Source of the DNA: an uncultured bacterium
Lineage (GTDB): Bacteria > Cyanobacteriota > Vampirovibrionia > Gastranaerophilales > Gastranaerophilaceae
DNA: 41,940 bases
Reading direction: 5' to 3'
Assembly (NCBI GenBank): GCA_949284155.1
Contig: CASDVD010000028.1
Coordinates: 1-41,940 of the forward strand
Shown: piece after piece, positions 11,695 to 31,339 of the stretch
Position numbering within the stretch: the stretch's first letter is position 1
Layout of the letters: the number at the start of each line of letters is the position of its first letter
Notes under the pieces: generated by a model
Database searches by the model: none
What the model saw: only the letters and a program-made list of their open reading frames with translations
What the model was told of the DNA's origin: nothing
Program-made: the position numbers and the translations under genes

Positions 11695-11938
11695 ATAATA
11701 TAAATATTTTGATACAAATATTGTTAAATAATTGTAATCTGTAAGTATTTCGTATATCCTTTAAGTACAGATATTCTCTGTAATCCTTCTTTATATGTAT
11801 AGCTTTTTAGCTGTTCTGTTAATAGGAGTATAGTTAAAAGTGAGTATCAGATGTATTGTAACGGATAAATACGAAAAATTCGGATTTATATCGAATTAGT
11901 ATATACTGATATCGCACCATAAAGAAAAGGTGTCGGAA

Positions 11939-13141
11939 ATGGAAAATAATTCACAAGATTTCTACTTAATTGATTTGTCATATGCATTGAGTCCTGCTGA
12001 TATAGTTTTTGAACTCAGCACAATTTTAGAACAGGAAATGGCTCATAATCAAAAAGTTTATTTGAAATTGGGTAATGTTGATTTAAACCAATCCCAGCTA
12101 TTGAGCATCAAATCTCTTATCAATAGCATTAATTCAACGCTAAATGCTCTTTCTTCCGAGTCAAAACAAACAGAACTTGCAGCTGCGACAATCGGTCTAA
12201 ATGTCTCGGTAAAAGAAAAAGAAGAGGAACCCTCTGCTCAGTATATTCCAATGACAGAACATCTGGAAAAAACGGTTTCTGCTGAGATGGCGGATTCCGG
12301 TTTTGAATTTGAAGTAAATGCAGAAAAAGAAACACAAGAGATACAAGAAACAGAAACTGTTGAGGAGAAAGAAAATAACATCGGGAATAAAGCTTTAAAT
12401 ACCGTGTCTGCTGATGAACAGCAAGAGCCTGTTCCTTCTCTTGAGAAAACGGCGGCTGAAAATGAAGGTAAGGAGGAAGTCCTTGGTTTAGATAAAGAGT
12501 CTGCCGGTATTGAAGAAACTGAAACACAAAATAATGACAATTCCGATAACTTTGAAAATTCCGATAATATAGATTCACTTGATGAAAAGATTGAATGCAA
12601 ACAAGAATCTGTTAATATACCGCCCTTAGAAAATGAAGAAATACAAGCGCAGCTTGACAGTATTTTTAATTCTGAGACAAAACTTGAAAATATACTGGCT
12701 GAGCAGGAAAATTATCCTTTTGTACAAGAGGCTGTTGATATTGAAATTCCGGAGGAAGAGGAACTTACGGAAGAAGATTATCAGATATTAACAATGCCTA
12801 CAAAGTATGTAAAACAGACTATTCGCTCGGGTCAGGTTATAAAATTTGACGGAAATATAATCGTTATCGGCGATTGTCATCCAGGTTCGGAACTGCATGC
12901 TGCGGGTGATATAACGGTATGGGGCACATTAGGCGGTATAGCTCATGCCGGTTGCGAGGGCAATCGAAGAGCAAGAATACGTGCACTGCAATTGAATGCA
13001 ATTCAATTACGTATCGGTGAATTTTATGCTCGCAGACCTGATGCGCTCAATGTTGCATATATCGACAAAACAAATTCGGTAACTCCGGAAGAGGCGAGAA
13101 TTATAAATGATAATATTGTTATTTTAAAATTAACAGATTGA
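11939..13141 (+). CDS. minC: Septum site-determining protein MinC with long acidic linker
   Basis: A protein of 400 residues from ATG 11939; a GTG at 11930 is in frame, but AAAGAAAAGG at 11921-11930 fits the ATG. MinC blocks FtsZ assembly away from midcell and is recruited by MinD. The C-terminal MinC domain (about residues 287-397) is clear: IRSGQVIKFDGNIIVIGDC, GSELHAAGDITVWGTLGG, AHAGCEGNRRARIRAL and QLRIGEFYARRP. The N-terminal about 85 residues are a plausible FtsZ-binding domain (LIDLSYALSPADIVFELS). Between them lie about 190 residues rich in Glu, Asn, Ser and Thr with no hydrophobic core, which is much longer than the usual MinC linker (E. coli MinC is about 231 residues in total). 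It is followed by minD with a 51-base gap. Confidence 0.92.
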   Translation: MENNSQDFYLIDLSYALSPADIVFELSTILEQEMAHNQKVYLKLGNVDLNQSQLLSIKSLINSINSTLNALSSESKQTELAAATIGLNVSVKEKEEEPSAQYIPMTEHLEKTVSAEMADSGFEFEVNAEKETQEIQETETVEEKENNIGNKALNTVSADEQQEPVPSLEKTAAENEGKEEVLGLDKESAGIEETETQNNDNSDNFENSDNIDSLDEKIECKQESVNIPPLENEEIQAQLDSIFNSETKLENILAEQENYPFVQEAVDIEIPEEEELTEEDYQILTMPTKYVKQTIRSGQVIKFDGNIIVIGDCHPGSELHAAGDITVWGTLGGIAHAGCEGNRRARIRALQLNAIQLRIGEFYARRPDALNVAYIDKTNSVTPEEARIINDNIVILKLTD

Positions 13142-13192
13142 ATTTAAAACCAGTAGTACTAATTAGAAAACCATATAAAAGGAGCACAAATA

Positions 13193-14005
13193 ATGACAGG
13201 GAGAGTAATCGTAATTACCTCAGGAAAAGGCGGGGTTGGAAAAACTACTACCAGTGCTAATATAGGAACGGCATTGGCAAAGAACGGAGCCGGTGTAGTT
13301 TTAATAGATACTGATATCGGGTTGAGAAATTTGGATTTGCTGTTGGGATTGGAAAACAGAATTGTCTATACACTGGTAGATGTAGTGGAAGAACGATGCA
13401 AACTTAAGCAGGCACTTGTTAAAGATAAAAAGAATCCTAATTTATGCCTGCTGGCAGCGGCTCAAACCAGAGATAAATCTGCAGTAACTGCCGAACAGCT
13501 GAAAGCTATTTGTGAGGAATTGCAAGAAGAATACGATTACATATTAGTCGATTGTCCCGCAGGTATTGAACAGGGCTTTCAAACTGCTATTGCCGGAGCA
13601 TCAGAGGCTATTGTTGTAACTACGCCTGAAATGTCAGCGGTACGGGATGCGGACAGGATAATAGGTCTGTTGGAAGCAAAAGAGGAAATCAAATCATACA
13701 AGCTTTTAATAAATCGTGTACGCCCGAGTATGATTAAAGCAAATGACATGATGAGTGTCGATGATGTTGTTGATATACTTTCTTGCAATCTCATTGGTAT
13801 TATTCCGGAGGATACCGGTATAATAACATCTACAAATAAAGGCGAGCCTATTGTAAATGATGAAAAATCACTTGCCGGACAGGCATATAATAATGTTGCC
13901 AGAAGAATATCCGGCGAGGAAGTTCCTTTTCTTGATATAGATGAACCTAAAGGTTTTGATGCTCTGGTTGCTAAAGTAAAAAAACTTTTCGGGATAAAAG
14001 GATAG
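13193..14005 (+). CDS. minD: Septum site-determining ATPase MinD
   Basis: A protein of 270 residues. This ParA/MinD-type ATPase binds membrane as an ATP dimer, recruits MinC, and is released by MinE. The deviant Walker A motif GKGGVGKTT (residues 11-19, signature Lys12) is intact, as are DTDIGLRNLDLLLGLE and YILVDCPAGIEQGF (switch II/Walker B). The C-terminus FDALVAKVKKLFGIKG has the amphipathic form of the MinD membrane-targeting helix. AAAGGAG precedes the ATG. Length is normal for the family. It lies in the minC-minD-minE order, 15 bases before minE. Confidence 0.97.
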   Translation: MTGRVIVITSGKGGVGKTTTSANIGTALAKNGAGVVLIDTDIGLRNLDLLLGLENRIVYTLVDVVEERCKLKQALVKDKKNPNLCLLAAAQTRDKSAVTAEQLKAICEELQEEYDYILVDCPAGIEQGFQTAIAGASEAIVVTTPEMSAVRDADRIIGLLEAKEEIKSYKLLINRVRPSMIKANDMMSVDDVVDILSCNLIGIIPEDTGIITSTNKGEPIVNDEKSLAGQAYNNVARRISGEEVPFLDIDEPKGFDALVAKVKKLFGIKG

Positions 14006-14020
14006 GAAGGAGCCGGAACG

Positions 14021-14608
14021 ATGAAAGAGATTTTTACAGATTTTTATAAACGTGTCATAGGCTTTTTCCAAAATGATAAAGGCGAAAATACAAAGGATGC
14101 TGCTACCAACCGATTAAAATTGGTTCTTTTGCATGACAGAACGAATCTTGATACTGTAACGATGCAAAAAATGCGTGAACAGTTGATTAATGTGATTTCT
14201 AAATATATAGAAATTGATAAAGAGGCTCTTGACTTAAACCTTGAAGGTGAAGGGGATTCAATTGCTCTTATGCTCAACATTCCTGTTGTCAGAGCAAGAA
14301 CAAAAGAGGAAATTGAAGAACTTGAAATAGCAGAAGAAGAGGCAAAAAGAGCAGAAATTCTTGCAGCTCTGGAGGAGGCCGCTTCTGAAGAAGATGGTAC
14401 TGCATCTGCGGAAAATGAGAAAAATGAGGAAGATGCGTCTGAGAAATCAGATGAATCCGGGCAGACAGATTCGTCTGAAGATGCAAATCCTCAGGACAAG
14501 GAACCTGAGAATTCATCTGAATCATCTGTTAATGAAACGGAAGTGGAGGATTCTTCTGATACACCTGTTGAGCAAACAGAACACAAAAAGAAAAAAAGTA
14601 AAAAATAA
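14021..14608 (+). CDS. minE: Cell division topological specificity factor MinE with acidic C-terminal tail
   Basis: A protein of 195 residues, about twice the usual 80-100. The MinE part is residues 1-95. It begins with an amphipathic start (MKEIFTDFYKRVIGFF), then AATNRLKLVLLHDRTNLD, the anti-MinCD segment. The dimerisation part follows (MQKMREQLINVISKYIEID, then LMLNIPVVRAR). Residues about 96-190 are almost only Glu, Ser, Asp, Ala, Asn and Lys (EEEAKRAEILAALEEAASEE and onward) and the end is KKKKSKK, so this tail is probably disordered. AGGAAGGAG precedes the ATG. It is the last gene of the Min operon and is followed by a strong terminator. Confidence 0.92.
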   Translation: MKEIFTDFYKRVIGFFQNDKGENTKDAATNRLKLVLLHDRTNLDTVTMQKMREQLINVISKYIEIDKEALDLNLEGEGDSIALMLNIPVVRARTKEEIEELEIAEEEAKRAEILAALEEAASEEDGTASAENEKNEEDASEKSDESGQTDSSEDANPQDKEPENSSESSVNETEVEDSSDTPVEQTEHKKKKSKK

Positions 14609-24297: not shown

Positions 24298-25368
24298 TTA
24301 CTTCTGTTCTTCTTTTAGTCTTTTTTGAGTGTCTTTATCAAAAAATAAAAATTCATCAGAATTTATATGTAAAACTGCAGTTTTGCCAAACTTCTTTTGT
24401 GCGTCCAGTTTTGCGGAACATTTAACACCATTGATAGTGCAGTAAATAATTTTTTCACTGCCAAGCATTTCAGATATATCTATATTTGCTGCCAGTTCAA
24501 GATTATAGGCGCTGCAATCCATTTTTTCAGGACGAATTCCGATGATAACTTCTTTTTTATCTTTTAAAAGAGCATATTGAGCGTCTGATAAAACGCAAGT
24601 CGTATCATTAAGTCTTATTGTTCTGTCTGCAATGCTCACCGGTATGAAATTCATTGAAGGCGAACCCAAAAAACCTCCTACGAAAGTATTTTGGGGATTG
24701 TAATAAATATTTTCAGGTGTATCAGCCTGTTGAATAATACCTCTGTCTAAGACTACAACTCTGTCACCCATAGTTAATGCTTCCGTTTGATCATGAGTGA
24801 CATAGATAAAGGTAGTTTGTAATCTTTCGTGAAGCTTTTTTATTTCCGAGCGCATCTGTACTCTTAATTTTGCGTCAAGGTTTGATAAAGGTTCATCCAT
24901 AAGAAATACCTTCGGATTTCTTACTATTGCACGTCCGAGAGCCACACGTTGCCGCTGGCCGCCGGATAATTGCTTAGGCTTTCTGTTAAGGTATTCAGTC
25001 AGATTTAAAATTTCTGCTGCTTCTTTTACCTTTTTATATATTTCATCTTTTTTGAAATTGCGCATTTTTAACGGGAATGCGATATTTTCATAAACTGTCA
25101 TATGCGGATAAAGAGCATAGCTTTGAAAAACGAACGCTATATCTCTGTCTTTCGGATGTACATTATTTACGCATTTGTCATCAATGTAGATTTCTCCGCT
25201 TGTTATGTCTTCAAGTCCTGCAATCATTCTTAAAATTGTGGATTTCCCGCATCCGGAAGAGCCTACCAACACTATAAATTCTTTATCTTTGATATCTAAG
25301 GACACATCATTAATAATAGTTTTTTCATCATATTTTTTTATTATATTTTTGAGTTTGACTTCCGCCAT
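24298..25368 (-). CDS. ABC transporter ATP-binding protein, MalK/UgpC/MsmX type
   Basis: A protein of 356 residues. Its ATPase motifs are complete: Walker A GSSGCGKST, Q-loop in FVFQSYALYPHMTVYEN, signature LSGGQRQR, Walker B VFLMDEPLSNLDAKLR, and the switch His in YVTHDQTEALTMGD. The C-terminal about 120 residues (from PENIYYNPQNTFVGGFLGSP) are the TOBE/OB regulatory domain of the carbohydrate-importer subgroup. No permease or binding protein is in the window, so it may serve several sugar or glycerol-phosphate importers, as MsmK/MsmX-type ATPases do. Its ATG overlaps the stop of the kinase-like gene by one base, placing it at the end of the signalling operon. Confidence 0.92.
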   Translation of the reverse strand: MAEVKLKNIIKKYDEKTIINDVSLDIKDKEFIVLVGSSGCGKSTILRMIAGLEDITSGEIYIDDKCVNNVHPKDRDIAFVFQSYALYPHMTVYENIAFPLKMRNFKKDEIYKKVKEAAEILNLTEYLNRKPKQLSGGQRQRVALGRAIVRNPKVFLMDEPLSNLDAKLRVQMRSEIKKLHERLQTTFIYVTHDQTEALTMGDRVVVLDRGIIQQADTPENIYYNPQNTFVGGFLGSPSMNFIPVSIADRTIRLNDTTCVLSDAQYALLKDKKEVIIGIRPEKMDCSAYNLELAANIDISEMLGSEKIIYCTINGVKCSAKLDAQKKFGKTAVLHINSDEFLFFDKDTQKRLKEEQK

Positions 25369-26528
25369 TAGATTCTAGCTCCGATTTTTTCAGAAGGGAT
25401 TACAAATGTATAAGATGTTCCTTTCATCTGTTCTGCTTCTACCCAAATTTTTCCTTTAATAAGCTTAATCAAAAGATAGACAATCCCCATTGTAAGATTT
25501 CTGTTCAATGTTTTTTTAGTAATAGCTTTTTCAACATCGGCATAGGGGTTAAATATTACGTCTTTTTCATTTTCTTGCAAGCCGCAGGAGGTATCTGAAA
25601 TCTTAAACATTAAAAATGTCTTATCATCGGCCCCTTCCGGTATTTTAAATCCGGCTATTTCCAGAAATTCAAGTGACGGTGTGCTGATTTCAATTTTAAT
25701 TGTGCCTGATTCAGTTCCCTTAATTGCGTTGTCAATCAGGTAATTTATTACTTTTTTAACTATAGCTTCATCACTATAGCATCCTCTTTTGGCGAGTTTA
25801 TTTAAATCAACATTTAAAATAAGTTTCTTTTCATCTGCCAGTGGTTTGTATTCATTGAATATATTTGTCATTAAGCTTACAAAGTCAAACGCCTTAAATT
25901 CATAGTCGTAAATTCCGGATTCAAGCTTTGAATATTCCACAATTTTATTAATTAAGTCCAATAATTGTTCTGAATTTTTATTTATTATTCTGAGATATTT
26001 TTCCTGCTTTTCATTAATATCTCCGCTGAGTCCTTCAAGAACGGCCTGAGAAAATCCGTTCACTGAATGCAGAGGGGATGTTAATTCTGTTGCGATTTTA
26101 GAAATAAAAAGATTTTTTTCTTTAGTAATTTTATTCAAAAACTCATGTTCAAAAATAAGCTTATTAAGCATTTTCTGAGATTGTGTTACATCTCTTACTG
26201 AAACTATGAGTTCATCGGTTTCGTCAGAGTAGCGGGAGGCTTTAATCTCAAAATATCTTTCATCATCCGGTTTAAGTTTTGAACGCACAATGGAAGATGC
26301 TCCTGTTTTTGCCAAATCGCAGACAAGGTTATATCCTCCGTCGAATAAATCTAATAAATCGTAATTATCAAAATTTTCAATAGAAAACAGACTTTGAGCT
26401 TTTGAGTTTGTTTCAATTATTTCGCCTACAGGTGCTGTAATTAAAACAGCTTCAGGTAAAAATTCCAAATCCGGTTTTACTTTTGGACGGTTAAATAAGA
26501 ATGATAAAAATTTCATAAAAATACTCAC
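25368..26528 (-). CDS. PAS-type histidine-kinase-like protein lacking the phospho-histidine
   Basis: A protein of 386 residues from a GTG; an in-frame ATG four codons later (26516) is also possible. It has a PAS-like domain (about 25-115, ending ELIVSVRDVTQS), a HisKA-like hairpin (about 136-200) and a HATPase-like domain (about 245-380). At the H-box the sequence is KIATELTSPLHS, where S-H-E-L-R-T-P-L is expected, so the phosphoacceptor His is Thr147. The N-box Asn267 (NYLIDNAIKG) is kept, but the G1 box is SDTSCGL instead of D-x-G-x-G, and the Gly-rich G2 box is replaced by LNRNLTMGIV. It is therefore probably a pseudokinase or phosphatase/sensor. It sits 47 bases after the membrane orphan and overlaps the MalK-type gene by one base. 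Confidence 0.85.
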   Translation of the reverse strand: MSIFMKFLSFLFNRPKVKPDLEFLPEAVLITAPVGEIIETNSKAQSLFSIENFDNYDLLDLFDGGYNLVCDLAKTGASSIVRSKLKPDDERYFEIKASRYSDETDELIVSVRDVTQSQKMLNKLIFEHEFLNKITKEKNLFISKIATELTSPLHSVNGFSQAVLEGLSGDINEKQEKYLRIINKNSEQLLDLINKIVEYSKLESGIYDYEFKAFDFVSLMTNIFNEYKPLADEKKLILNVDLNKLAKRGCYSDEAIVKKVINYLIDNAIKGTESGTIKIEISTPSLEFLEIAGFKIPEGADDKTFLMFKISDTSCGLQENEKDVIFNPYADVEKAITKKTLNRNLTMGIVYLLIKLIKGKIWVEAEQMKGTSYTFVIPSEKIGARI

Positions 26529-26575
26529 AATTTATGAATAAATATTATCACATTATTCTTGATTTTAACAAGTCA

Positions 26576-27295
26576 TTAAGCTAACAATTCTTTTTGCAGC
26601 AGCTTGTTTTCTATTCCTGTGTCAAATTCGATATTTTCTTCATTTGTATTATCAGGAACCGCATTGTCCAGTCTGTTTATTTCTTCATGTAATTTTTTAA
26701 ATTCATCTGTGAAATTTTTCTTATGATTATTTTGTGTTTTCTCGACATAGATTTCTCCGACTTTGTATCCTGCGGTGCTTCCTGCTATAGAGCCGGCGAC
26801 AAACCCGAGGCCCTCAAGTACTGCCAATGCTGTTTTGGCATATTTGTTTTTCATATTTGAGTGTACTTCTTTTAGGTAGTCAGAGTTCAGGAAATTTTTC
26901 ATAAGAGCTTCAATACCAAACATGGCGCTCATTCCGAACACTTCTTTTTTCAACTGTGCTTCCTTGTCGTCAGAAACAAGAATTCTATACCCGGCGGCGC
27001 CGACAAGCAGCGGGTTGACATGGTCGCTTGCCCAGCTTGCGCTTTTTCCTGCATATTCAAGTATTTTACTGTGTTTGGAAGCAGAACACATTGCATTTAT
27101 TGCCGCCTGTGTTCCTTTGCCTAATGTATTATCCAATTTGGCTGCGGCTTTCCCTGCATTGGTTAATTGGCCTGCTGTCGCAGCAATCCGTCCACGGTCA
27201 TCAATACCGTTGTTGTCCCCGAATACTTTGTTCGCATTTCTGCCGCCAAACGTACCCGATTTAACCAATGTAACTAATGTAGAAACATCAATCAT
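26576..27295 (-). CDS. Orphan protein with Ala/Gly-rich helices in the signalling cluster
   Basis: This gives 239 residues from ATG 27295. An upstream ATG at 27394 would add a hydrophobic 33-residue piece, but AAGG seven bases before 27295 and the start MIDVSTLVTLVKSG favour the shorter form. The Gly/Asn-rich N-terminal part contains FGGRNANKVFGDNNGIDDRG. The middle has helices (KLDNTLGKGTQAAINAMCSA, PLLVGAAGYRILV). A glycine-zipper-like segment is near residue 175 (GLGFVAGSIAGSTAGYKVG), followed by a charged C-terminus with EFKKLHEEINRLDN. No family was recognised. It lies between the PilB-like gene and the kinase-like gene, all on the same strand, with 157 bases upstream that could hold a separate promoter. 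Confidence 0.7.
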   Translation of the reverse strand: MIDVSTLVTLVKSGTFGGRNANKVFGDNNGIDDRGRIAATAGQLTNAGKAAAKLDNTLGKGTQAAINAMCSASKHSKILEYAGKSASWASDHVNPLLVGAAGYRILVSDDKEAQLKKEVFGMSAMFGIEALMKNFLNSDYLKEVHSNMKNKYAKTALAVLEGLGFVAGSIAGSTAGYKVGEIYVEKTQNNHKKNFTDEFKKLHEEINRLDNAVPDNTNEENIEFDTGIENKLLQKELLA

Positions 27296-27452
27296 GCCGT
27301 ACCTTAATCTATAACACTTCCATTTATATAAAAACCATGCTTTTGAAAAAATTGCGGGCATGTATAAAAAGTGTAACAATTGGAAACATAGCACTGATAA
27401 AAGATTTCAGCTCTTGCGGATGAATGAGTTTAATTTAGTGTTTATTTTTATG

Positions 27453-28853
27453 TTAACTGAAGTATTTGTCTAATGCCGCTTTATCAAAGACTTCAATGCT
27501 TTCTTTGCTGTGAATAAATATCATGCAGGTTAATAATGATTTAAACATTGAAAATTCGCTTAACCCGAATTTTTTCATTAAGTCTGCCATATTTTCCGCC
27601 AAAAATTCAGTTATTAAAGTTTTATTTTTTAGAACCAAAGATGTAAAATAGTCTAAACCTTCTTTTGTGTTAATTCCTTCAAAGTAAAGAATATCAGGTG
27701 ATTGAAACTCTATGAAGCGCATAGCTTTATCCAGATTAAAGCCGACATGTTCGTTTAATTCGCACTGGTTGACATTTTCAAGGTTGTATTTCGTTATTGA
27801 CTCAATCGTCATCACATTTTTATTTTCAGTTGCAATTTCAGATAATATAGAATATACCATGTGCGTTTTGCCGCTTAATCCGGAGCCGCAAACAAGAATG
27901 ATACCCGGCTCTGACAGTGAATCTTTTATAATTTGTATTTTTTTTGATTCTATTCCTGTCTGACTGAGTTTTTTGGGCGGTTTGTAAATCTTTAGGGAAA
28001 TTCTTTCGCCATGTATTGTAGGAAAGGCTGATATGCTGGCAATTAAAGCTATATCATCTACTTTAAAACTCAACTTTCCTAATTGAGGCAGTTCTGAAAC
28101 GGTAGGGTCTAAATTTGATAATGTTTTTAATCTTGAAATGAAGGAAGATATAAGAATAGGCGGGATTTCTCCGGTTGAATAAATTTGTGCATTTTTTTTG
28201 AAGTTTACGCTCAACCCCTCAGGAACATGTTCAAAAAATAATTCATGAATATCTTCTGAAATAGCCTGTTTTATTATTGAACGTATAAGCTTTTGTATAT
28301 GTTCATCCGATAAATCTTCTTCATGCAGTTCTTCTCTCCAGTCGAATTTTGGCTGATTTTCATCAATGAAGATTTCGCCGACAGAATTTTCACTTTTATA
28401 ATATTCTTCAATTTTTTTTAGAACAGCGGATTCTGATGATATAACAGGTTCTATTTCGCATTTTGCATCTTCAACGATTTTATCGATTGCAAATAAATCC
28501 AGCGGATCTGACATTGCAACCGTCAGAATTCCTTCAATTTCAAAAAGGGGAATAACTTTATATTTAATTGCATTATTTATATTTATGTATCCGAGGCATT
28601 TTTTGTCCAACGAATAGTCGTCCAAATCTACATATGGAATATGAAGTTTGGATTCTAAAAATTTTAATAAAGTTTTTTCCTCAATAATATTAGAATTTAT
28701 CAAAACCTGACCGATATTGACATTTTGCGCTGATGCCACCTGCTCGGCTGTTTCCAAATCCTCGTATTTAATTAGCCCGTCTCGCACAAGGTCGTACTTG
28801 AGCTTTTCAAGTGTTTTATTTCTGACAAATTCTGTTTGAGATGTGTTTTCCAT
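27453..28853 (-). CDS. Degenerate PilB/GspE-type secretion ATPase with N-terminal MshEN-like domain
   Basis: A protein of 466 residues; typical PilB/GspE are 500-570. Residues 1-155 resemble the MshEN/T2SSE-N domain (KYDLVRDGLI, then NIGQVLINSNIIEEKTLLKFLE and VIPLFEIEGILTVAMSDPLD). Next comes the ATPase N-domain (SIIKQAISEDIHELFFEHV, FPTIHGERISLKIYKPP). The P-loop GSGLSGKT (323-330) is kept. The rest of the active site is eroded: the Asp box reads IESITKY, the Walker B region is SPDILYFEGINTKE instead of D-P-D-x-x-x-x-G-E-I-R-D, the His box is missing, and there is no four-Cys zinc module. It is probably a regulatory pseudo-ATPase. It starts three bases after the response regulator stop. Confidence 0.85.
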   Translation of the reverse strand: MENTSQTEFVRNKTLEKLKYDLVRDGLIKYEDLETAEQVASAQNVNIGQVLINSNIIEEKTLLKFLESKLHIPYVDLDDYSLDKKCLGYININNAIKYKVIPLFEIEGILTVAMSDPLDLFAIDKIVEDAKCEIEPVISSESAVLKKIEEYYKSENSVGEIFIDENQPKFDWREELHEEDLSDEHIQKLIRSIIKQAISEDIHELFFEHVPEGLSVNFKKNAQIYSTGEIPPILISSFISRLKTLSNLDPTVSELPQLGKLSFKVDDIALIASISAFPTIHGERISLKIYKPPKKLSQTGIESKKIQIIKDSLSEPGIILVCGSGLSGKTHMVYSILSEIATENKNVMTIESITKYNLENVNQCELNEHVGFNLDKAMRFIEFQSPDILYFEGINTKEGLDYFTSLVLKNKTLITEFLAENMADLMKKFGLSEFSMFKSLLTCMIFIHSKESIEVFDKAALDKYFS

Positions 28854-28856
28854 TAG

Positions 28857-29228
28857 TTAGTCCAGATATTCTTTAACTTTTTCTATGACTTCGTCTAAAT
28901 CAAAAGGCTTTGTAATATACTCATTCGCACCGGTTTCCTGTCCGATGAGTTTGTCTTCTTCTTGAGAACGGGCAGTTACCATTAGTATGGGAATGTCTTT
29001 ATATTTCGTATCATATTTTAAAAGTCTGCTTATCTTATAGCCGTTCATTTTAGGCATCATTACGTCAAGTATCATCAAGTCGGGAATTATTTCTTTTGCC
29101 ATAGAAAGGCCTGCTTCGCCGTCATAAGCGCAATAACATTCATACCCCTGTGCTTCAAGCATAAATTTTAGCGTTTCTACTATATCCTGCTCGTCATCGA
29201 CGATTAGAATTTTTTTTGTATCGCTCAT
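28857..29228 (-). CDS. Single-domain CheY/PleD-like response regulator
   Basis: A protein of 123 residues, a single receiver domain with all key residues: the acidic pair D11/D12 (ILIVDDEQD), phosphoacceptor D55 (LMILDVMMPKMNGY), T85 (MVTAR) and K107 (YITKPF). It lacks an output domain, so it must act by protein-protein contact, either as a phosphorelay intermediate or on a partner such as the PilB-like protein encoded next. Its ATG overlaps the kinase stop by four bases (ATGA), which makes the upstream kinase its likely phosphodonor. Confidence 0.95.
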   Translation of the reverse strand: MSDTKKILIVDDEQDIVETLKFMLEAQGYECYCAYDGEAGLSMAKEIIPDLMILDVMMPKMNGYKISRLLKYDTKYKDIPILMVTARSQEEDKLIGQETGANEYITKPFDLDEVIEKVKEYLD

Positions 29229-31339
29229 ACTGCAACTCTCCCCTTGTTTAAATTTTTTACGGCATATTCAAACAGTCCGGCAGCATTTTTACCGTTTTCA
29301 GGAAATAATGCTGTTGAATACAATATATCATAGTTTGGATTTTCGGTCTTGCTGTTTTGCGTAAAACTTTCAATCTTTTTTTCAATAAAATTTTGTGCAA
29401 ATTTGTCTGCTTCAGGAATGGAAATAAGAAGATATCGTTTTTTATTTTCGTTATAAAAGACTTCTTTTGTATTAGTTGTCTTTCTGATAATTGATATTTT
29501 TTCCTCTTTAATATCCTCAATAAATGAAATGTGTTCTGTATTCTGCCTTTGGGGCAAAAGTTCATCTTCACATATTAAAACCAGCAGAAGATTTTTTTCG
29601 GATGTTTGTGCTTTTGTTATATTTTTTTCAAGTTCAAGCATAAAGTACTCTTTTTCGTTTAAAACAGGGATGACAAATGCAAAAGTGGTACCTATATTAG
29701 GCTCGCTTTCAACCCAGATAAATCCTTTATGTGCTTCAATAAGCTGTTTTGCAATAGGAAGACCCAGCCCGGTGCCGCCGTTTTTTCTGCTCAAAGAGTT
29801 TTCAATCTGTTGAAATTTGTCAAAAACTTTTGGAATATCTTCTTTTGCTATTCCTATTCCGCTGTCAGAGACAGAAACTTTGATATAGTTGTCGTAAAAG
29901 ACCGGATTTTGTGCGTCAAACAGTTTTGTTTTATCAATATCAAAGCTTGTTATATTTTCAGTTTTGACAACAATTTTTCCGTTTTCATTTGTGAATTTAA
30001 TTGCATTAGAAATTAAATTCGAAACGACTTGCTCAATACGTTGTGAATCCAGATAAGTTTCTGATATATCTTTTTGTGCATTTAAAATTAATGTGATATT
30101 TTTTTCTTTTGCTAAATTTTCAAAAGTGTTTTTAACAAATTCCACAGGAGCATTAATGTCGCTTTTTTCAAATCTAAAATCCATTTTGCCTGCTTCAACT
30201 TTTGTCAAATCCAATAAATCGTTAATAATACCTGACAACCTTGTTACATTACGTTTCGCCAAATTCAGGAACTTGTCCATTGTTGCGGTGAGCTCGCCTG
30301 TTTTTCCGCTGAGCATGATATCAAGAGAATTTTTAATTGCAGTAAGCGGTGTTCTTAATTCGTGAGAAACAATAGATGTGAATTCTGATTTTAAACGCTC
30401 AAGCCGTTCTAATTTTGTATTTGTATCTTTAATTTCTTCATACAAAGATGCATTTTCAAGCGGAAGAGAAACTTGTCGTGAGAGAGTTTGAAAACAGGTC
30501 GTGTCTTCCTGTGAAAATTCAGCTTCTCTGAAAACTTCTATAAGTCCGAAAAATTTTTCTCCGACATTAATTGGGGCAAATAAATTGTCAAACTTAAGGA
30601 TGTTTAAATCATATTCTTCAAGCGGATGTTTTATGTTTTTTATAACATTAATATCTTCCACATTAATATCATAAGGGATTTGTTTTTTATCAAAGAGCGC
30701 CCTGTAGCTTAGAATAGAACGAAGTTTTAGAGAATGTTCCAGTCTTGGCGAAATGCCGTATAAGGAATTTATTATCAAATCAATATTATTTTCGCCGTTA
30801 AAAACTAAAGTGGAAGAAAGAGAAAAACTCAAACTCTTTTCCAGCCCGTCAATCATTATGTTAATAAGCTTTTGTTTATCTAAAGAGCCGGCTAGCTGTG
30901 TACTGGTATTATATAGAACATCCAGCTGATATAGGCTTTTTGCAAGCTCGCTGTTATTCTTTGAGAGAATATCCAGTGATTTTTTCATTTTTAAATTTGA
31001 AGAAACACAAGCGGAAAGAATTTTTTCATTAATCGGTTTACTTATACTTGCATTTGATAGTTTCAAAATATCATTAATTTGTGCTTCAGGATTAATAAGA
31101 GATATAATTAAAATGTTTTCCGTGTGCACATAAGCTTTTAGTTTTTTGCACAAAATAACTGCATCAAGAGCTTTTATATCTGCATTAATAATGATTAAAT
31201 CAATCAGGTTTTTTTCAATGTAATTAAAAATACCTGTTTCATCAACAGACAGAATAACAGAAATTCCATTTTGAGCTAAAACGGAAGATATATTTTCATT
31301 TTCTTCTTCGTTATCCGATACCAACAATACTTTAGACAT
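29225..31339 (-). CDS. Large hybrid sensor histidine kinase: degenerate REC, GAF, HisKA, HATPase, GGDEF-like
   Basis: A protein of 704 residues, soluble, with no membrane helix. Residues 1-115 have a receiver fold, but the phosphoacceptor site is Asn52 (DLIIINADIKAL); the Lys is kept (ISKP). Residues about 140-300 look like a GAF sensor domain (VLYNTSTQLAGSLDKQKLI ... NASLYEEI). A complete kinase core follows: H326 (SIVSHELRTPLTAI), N445 (LISNAIKFT), G1 at D492 (SDSGIGIAKED) and G2 GGTGLGLPIA (521-530). The last 140 residues resemble a diguanylate-cyclase fold without the GGDEF motif (RYLLISIPEAD, then STALFPENGKNAAGLFEYAVKNL). It leads the operon. A sensory role inside the cell is inferred; the signal is unknown. 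Confidence 0.88.
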   Translation of the reverse strand: MSKVLLVSDNEEENENISSVLAQNGISVILSVDETGIFNYIEKNLIDLIIINADIKALDAVILCKKLKAYVHTENILIISLINPEAQINDILKLSNASISKPINEKILSACVSSNLKMKKSLDILSKNNSELAKSLYQLDVLYNTSTQLAGSLDKQKLINIMIDGLEKSLSFSLSSTLVFNGENNIDLIINSLYGISPRLEHSLKLRSILSYRALFDKKQIPYDINVEDINVIKNIKHPLEEYDLNILKFDNLFAPINVGEKFFGLIEVFREAEFSQEDTTCFQTLSRQVSLPLENASLYEEIKDTNTKLERLERLKSEFTSIVSHELRTPLTAIKNSLDIMLSGKTGELTATMDKFLNLAKRNVTRLSGIINDLLDLTKVEAGKMDFRFEKSDINAPVEFVKNTFENLAKEKNITLILNAQKDISETYLDSQRIEQVVSNLISNAIKFTNENGKIVVKTENITSFDIDKTKLFDAQNPVFYDNYIKVSVSDSGIGIAKEDIPKVFDKFQQIENSLSRKNGGTGLGLPIAKQLIEAHKGFIWVESEPNIGTTFAFVIPVLNEKEYFMLELEKNITKAQTSEKNLLLVLICEDELLPQRQNTEHISFIEDIKEEKISIIRKTTNTKEVFYNENKKRYLLISIPEADKFAQNFIEKKIESFTQNSKTENPNYDILYSTALFPENGKNAAGLFEYAVKNLNKGRVAV

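Follow-up and report, generated by a model that had tools for sequence, protein, structure and literature searches.

A Conserved, Probable PilB-Derived Pseudo-ATPase Linked to a Kinase–CheY Pair and Retained without the Pilus Motor in Candidatus Gastranaerophilales

The protein of 466 residues encoded on the (−) strand at 27,453–28,853 of the window (the whole stretch of 41,940 nucleotides that was analysed) is probably a pseudo-ATPase that acts independently of pili, in partnership with a two-component phosphorelay dedicated to it. It descends from the PilB/GspE family, and it has kept the P-loop and lost the other catalytic motifs. Its gene lies beside those of an intact CheY-like receiver and a sensor histidine kinase, and it is found even in genomes that no longer have the pilus motor.

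Gene Organization and Predicted Fold

Pfam, orthologues, motif patterns, the tree, the AF2 model and fold comparison together place this protein in the PilB/GspE family as a putative pseudo-ATPase. Its reading frame is open throughout and is separated by three bases from the upstream CheY-like gene. The frame, the length, the strand, the position of GSGLSGKT at residues 323–330 and the three-base gap are all as the sequence-only reading had given them. Pfam detected MshEN (8e-17) and T2SSE (3e-28), but the T2SSE match spanned only profile positions 4–216 of 370. In phmmer comparisons with PilF/PilB, the matches ranged from 5e-47 to 1e-41.

The AF2 model, built with 54 sequences (pLDDT 82.9, pTM 0.64), showed an MshEN domain, an N2D domain and a compact RecA-like core. 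Residues 180–466 matched PilB (5zfr_B) with a Z of 23.5 and an rmsd of 3.6 over 281 aligned residues, without the metal-binding and C-terminal parts of PilB. Residues 14–152 matched MshE (5htl_B) with a Z of 17.5 and an rmsd of 2.6 over 138 aligned residues. The earlier domain picture was right about the lost motifs but had missed this N-terminal MshEN domain, in which the c-di-GMP residues are replaced.

Excerpts of the published work on the MshEN c-di-GMP receptor describe the motif RLG...LxxxLxxQ, which occurs twice (PMC5013675). Motif comparison and the fold match to MshE placed the region equivalent to the two 24-residue motifs at residues 17–69 (28,647–28,805, (−) strand). The Arg and Gln of both motifs are replaced, by K17 and A40 in one and by N46 and K69 in the other, and the hydrophobic positions are partly kept. 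Among the 68 family sequences, the two Arg positions held Lys in 66 and Asn in 68, and the two Gln positions held Ala in 65 and Lys in 67, respectively. Judged from these residues, the protein is unlikely to bind c-di-GMP in the known way. GGDEF genes were present in 19 of 19 genomes tested, with seven matches in this genome, and the cell may therefore contain c-di-GMP.

Linkage to the CheY-like Receiver and the Histidine Kinase

The CheY-like gene (28,857–29,228, (−) strand) encodes a single-domain receiver of 123 residues with an intact phospho-acceptor site. It was found directly upstream of the PilB-like gene in 125 of 126 loci, which hold 111 distinct PilB-like sequences, and the remaining locus is at a contig end. 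The acidic pair D11 and D12, the phospho-acceptor D55, T85 and K107 were invariant in 21 of 21 sequences. The same gene overlaps the end of a kinase gene (29,225–31,339, (−) strand), and a kinase on the same strand lies upstream in 106 of the 114 loci whose upstream sequence exceeds 3.5 kb. Mirror-tree correlations were 0.82 for target and CheY, 0.85 for target and kinase and 0.85 for CheY and kinase, so CheY is not singled out. No third neighbour of comparable linkage was found that would name the output, the next cluster being present in 29 of the 111 distinct loci.

The kinase has 704 residues and is composed of a degenerate receiver, a GAF-like domain, HisKA, HATPase and a C-terminal tail. 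Its N-terminal receiver is weak and falls below the Pfam cut-off. The last 147 residues (29,225–29,668, (−) strand) gave no Pfam match in any of 20 kinases, and AF2 folded them as a GGDEF domain (pLDDT 86.9). The best structural match was 6khu (Z 13.4, rmsd 2.7, 123 aligned residues); GGDEF structures made up all the matches listed, and no GGDEF motif was visible among the tail sequences listed. According to the model, a cryptic and degenerate GGDEF fold forms the end of the kinase. In the cassette, an intact phosphorelay is thus combined with several domains that have degenerated.

We propose that a PilB-type pilus extension motor became a pseudo-ATPase before the two Gastranaerophilales families split and would no longer power a pilus. 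The kinase would phosphorylate the CheY-like protein, which would then bind the PilB-like protein and alter its conformation or its oligomerization, and the state so reached would be the signal. In the main family, to which the genome of the window belongs, ATP may still bind to the PilB-like protein and serve there for structure or sensing, while hydrolysis is probably absent. In the sister family, no ATP could be bound through the P-loop. The output may be surface polysaccharide or some other cell-surface behaviour, which is a guess made by analogy with PilB of M. xanthus. Phospho-control had been suggested before from the spacing of the two genes, and it appears likely, as the gene is almost always linked to those of a kinase and an intact CheY-like protein. 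CheY binding, the control itself and the direction of signalling are what we infer from this arrangement, and operon linkage proves neither binding nor direction.

Signalling could also run in reverse, with the PilB-like protein as an input that senses the nucleotide level or an MshEN ligand and governs either the kinase or how CheY is dephosphorylated. We regard this as unlikely, although several observations suit it. The P-loop is kept in the main family, the MshEN fold is kept with a new set of conserved residues, and the CheY–target pair stands together in eight loci without a same-strand upstream kinase. Against it, the kinase has sensory-type domains of its own and a CheY that stands alone requires a partner for its output; neither point is decisive.

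The pair lacks a kinase upstream in L052, L059, L155, L167, L170, L180 and L185. At L074, which belongs to genus g34, a kinase relative lies downstream on the opposite strand.

Persistence without the Pilus Motor

Of the pilus INDEPENDENCE, PilC (PF00482) was detected in 133 of the 146 family genomes and in 129 of the 141 genomes that bear the PilB-like orthologue. Of the 13 family genomes without a PilC match, 12 have the PilB-like protein. By profile search, PilC was absent from all genomes sampled in two genera, g34 (four genomes) and g40 (four genomes). Canonical T2SSE was absent there too, the sole matches above the cut-off being the PilB-like protein itself. PilB and PilT are both gone in these genera, alongside PilC and the secretin, which was not found in seven of seven genomes tested. 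Prepilins were missing from six of these seven genomes, and G070 gave two prepilin-like matches.

The PilB-like protein is kept in seven of the eight genomes of g34 and g40, with omega values of 0.015–0.036 (six of nine pairs with finite dS). It persists without the pilus motor, and a genome need not have a pilus or secretion machine to carry it. The loss of type IV pili in g34 and g40 was read from profile searches of draft genomes in two sister genera. The target tree, in which each genus has one row, makes them sisters, and identity between their targets is 77%; pilus loss may therefore be one old event. PilM (PF11104) gave no match above the cut-off in 19 genomes, including genomes with both PilB and PilC, and is for that reason useless as a pilus marker.

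These results bear on the possibility that the protein is an accessory, inactive subunit or an inhibitor of the pilus motor, which mixes with PilB or sits at PilC while phospho-CheY sets the amount of pili. Such a role would account for the PilB fold and ancestry and for the frequent co-occurrence with PilC. It also has a precedent in PilT, which still aids pilus function together with PilU when it has no ATPase activity, as described in the available part of PMC11656802. We nevertheless consider it improbable, since the protein remains under purifying selection in g34 and g40 without canonical T2SSE, PilC or secretin. Furthermore, in the genome of the window, the cassette and the secretin–PilB–PilC cluster lie on different contigs.

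A prepilin peptidase was kept in seven of seven g34 and g40 genomes (G034, G092, G112, G131, G040, G070 and G116), which, like the two prepilin-like matches in G070, counts against the proposed reading. The number of prepilin N-terminal matches varied widely between genomes, with 70 in G013 and 55 in G006 compared with 12 in the genome of the window (G000).

Catalytic Motifs

The motifs were compared with PilB of the same genome, which was aligned with the 466-residue protein. The P-loop reads GPTGSGKT in PilB and GSGLSGKT in the PilB-like protein (residues 323–330; 27,864–27,887, (−) strand). In the Asp box, TIEDPVEI became TIESITKY, which leaves the degenerate box IESITKY at residues 350–356 (27,786–27,806, (−) strand). 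Further along the alignment, QDPDIILIGEIRD became QSPDILYFEGINT and TGHLVLSTLHTN became KNKTLITEFLAEN. The Walker B stretch changed from DPDIILIGEIR to SPDILYFEGIN, within the degenerate region SPDILYFEGINTKE at residues 385–398 (27,660–27,701, (−) strand). Here the sequence-only reading, which took Walker B as lost, held for the canonical pattern and not for the Glu, which has moved by one residue (GE to EG) and is not simply gone. No His box is left, and the four-Cys region and the C-terminal subdomains are deleted.

Orthologues showed the same picture. The Asp box, the canonical Walker B, the His box and the four-Cys pattern were present in none of 71 distinct orthologues (68 from the family and three from the sister family). 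The Walker A pattern was found in 68 of 68 family orthologues and in none of the three from the sister family. As a control, the same patterns were applied to canonical PilB; Walker A, Asp box, Walker B and His box were found in all 22 loci listed, three of which are second copies of the same gene. The four-Cys pattern was found in 20 of these 22, with both exceptions outside the order. Motif-complete PilBs are encoded elsewhere in most genomes that bear the PilB-like protein. As had been proposed, the P-loop is retained while the Asp box, Walker B, His box and four-Cys module are lost. Orthologues with intact motifs in close relatives, which would have spoken against the proposal, were sought and none was found. 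With no lost motif in any of the 68 family or three sister-family sequences, the loss, as far as sequences can tell, is not due to chance.

Both families share four invariant residues, E351, K355, Q384 and E392. Of these, E351 (the Asp-box Glu) and E392 (the shifted Walker B Glu) were found in 68 of 68 family and three of three sister-family sequences. As the sister family has no P-loop, these residues are presumably kept for something other than catalysis. The invariance of the P-loop, E351 and E392 in the main family makes residual ATPase activity possible, and the protein might then be an active, slow nucleotide switch that still hydrolyses ATP in a rearranged site, with the shifted E392 and E351 as metal or water ligands. 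This is quite improbable in our view. The sister family, which has lost the P-loop, keeps E351 and E392 just as strictly, which suggests a reason other than hydrolysis for their conservation, and the Asp-box Asp, the His box and the metal-binding and C-terminal modules are gone.

Distribution, Phylogeny and Selection

An orthologue was found in 141 of 146 family genomes, three of the 141 being partial. The five without one (G029, G031, G039, G087 and G134) gave a PilB match only, or none, and three of the five are less than 90% complete. In the sister family, three of four genomes have an orthologue, with 37–38% identity. Beyond both families, the phylum sample gave PilB-like matches only, at about 24–28% identity among the matches listed. 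Named matches belonged to Candidatus Gastranaerophilales or to records titled bacterium, uncultured bacterium, Melainabacteria or Cyanobacteria, and one was named Candidatus Avigastranaerophilus. At least 569 relatives were confirmed in the genome collection, of which 80 were kept.

In a tree of 35 rows, 13 of them targets, the PilB-like orthologues formed one clade (support 100/100) on a long stem. The stem measures 2.41 changes per column, a length at which the tree program warns of long branches meeting, and the tree does not resolve which PilB lineage gave rise to the clade. Judged from these sequences, Candidatus Gastranaerophilales has in the PilB-like protein an ancient paralogue that has been conserved and is not a product of decay.

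Omega was calculated by pairwise Nei–Gojobori, and 218 of 319 pairs were dropped for a dS outside 0.2–2. The 101 usable pairs gave omega values of 0.013–0.085 with a median of 0.056 for the PilB-like gene, which shows purifying selection across orthologues. The pairs of the window's own genome are mostly saturated (target dS infinite in all six), so these values come from other, closer pairs. In 40 close pairs, the PilB-like gene was generally as constrained as the CheY-like gene and more constrained than the kinase gene. The low omega, the single order-wide clade and persistence without pilus motor, platform and secretin give good support to the earlier proposal that the protein is under selection in a new role and not in decay. 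A decaying pseudogene or an assembly artefact, with which the loss of catalytic motifs alone would fit, is ruled out for practical purposes by a frame that is open in nearly all orthologues, an omega far below 1 and conservation across the whole order.

Relation to Known Systems

Traffic ATPases are treated as parts of machines. The PilB-like protein shares with PilB/GspE the domain order of MshEN, N2D and RecA-like core, and with PilB the fold and, in the main family, the P-loop. It differs from PilB/GspE in having no Asp box, canonical Walker B, His box, four-Cys module or C-terminal subdomains, and from PilB in that its gene lies outside the pil cluster and persists without PilC. Compared with MshE, the MshEN fold is similar, but the Arg and Gln of both motifs are replaced.

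Two-component modules in which a single-domain CheY has an output partner other than DNA form a known class. The cassette resembles them in placing an intact receiver and kinase beside a non-transcriptional partner, and it is unlike them in that the partner is a PilB-derived pseudo-enzyme. PilB of M. xanthus offers a precedent. According to excerpts of PMC5544727, this protein has a signalling function in exopolysaccharide production that is independent of its work as a motor, and its Walker A mutant assembles no pili and still signals, the nucleotide-free state being the proposed signalling form. Signalling there is separable from pilus assembly and a nucleotide-poor form is active. In M. xanthus, as those excerpts describe it, one active motor does both jobs, whereas here a separate motor-less paralogue is linked to a kinase and a CheY of its own. 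All extension ATPases are described with a catalytic glutamate and Walker A and B in the available part of PMC11656802, a description that the PilB-like protein does not fit.

Passages on the Gastranaerophilus genome report pil genes, and a PilB-like pseudo-ATPase paralogue is absent from those passages (PMC5877343). Literature searches returned nothing on PilB as a "pseudo-ATPase". Judged by titles and the beginnings of abstracts, nothing was found on a bacterial PilB paralogue with degenerate Walker motifs, and titles and abstracts gave no kinase–CheY–PilB-like cassette or pair of CheY and PilB-derived pseudo-enzyme. Little published signalling work on Gastranaerophilales was found. What is new is a conserved, probable PilB pseudo-enzyme that is linked to a two-component system of its own and has outlasted the pilus motor.

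A wider interpretation, which we put forward tentatively, is that a pilus motor was converted into a signalling pseudo-enzyme that outlives its machine. An ancestral control of pili by c-di-GMP and ATP could then have been rewired, across the order, into a chain of purely protein–protein contacts. All the domains around the intact kinase–CheY phosphorelay would be dead ones, whether catalytic or for a ligand, namely the pseudo-receiver and pseudo-GGDEF of the kinase and the pseudo-MshEN and pseudo-ATPase of the output protein. Evolution appears to have split signalling into a gene of its own, with the engine removed and the signal kept where the pilus is gone. If this is true, the cassette offers a clean system for studying signal transmission by a motor fold that turns over no ATP. 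It would also identify a core signalling cassette of Gastranaerophilales, a gut-dwelling order related to cyanobacteria.

Other Genes in the Window

Downstream of the cassette, at 24,298–27,394 on the (−) strand, lie a 272-residue ORF without a Pfam match, a second histidine kinase and an ABC ATPase. Among the loci compared, this block recurs beside the target only in L082 of the same genus, and L079 gave one weak match to the 272-residue ORF. Further away, at 11,930–14,608 on the (+) strand, there are three consecutive ORFs which, by eye, resemble MinC, MinD and MinE.
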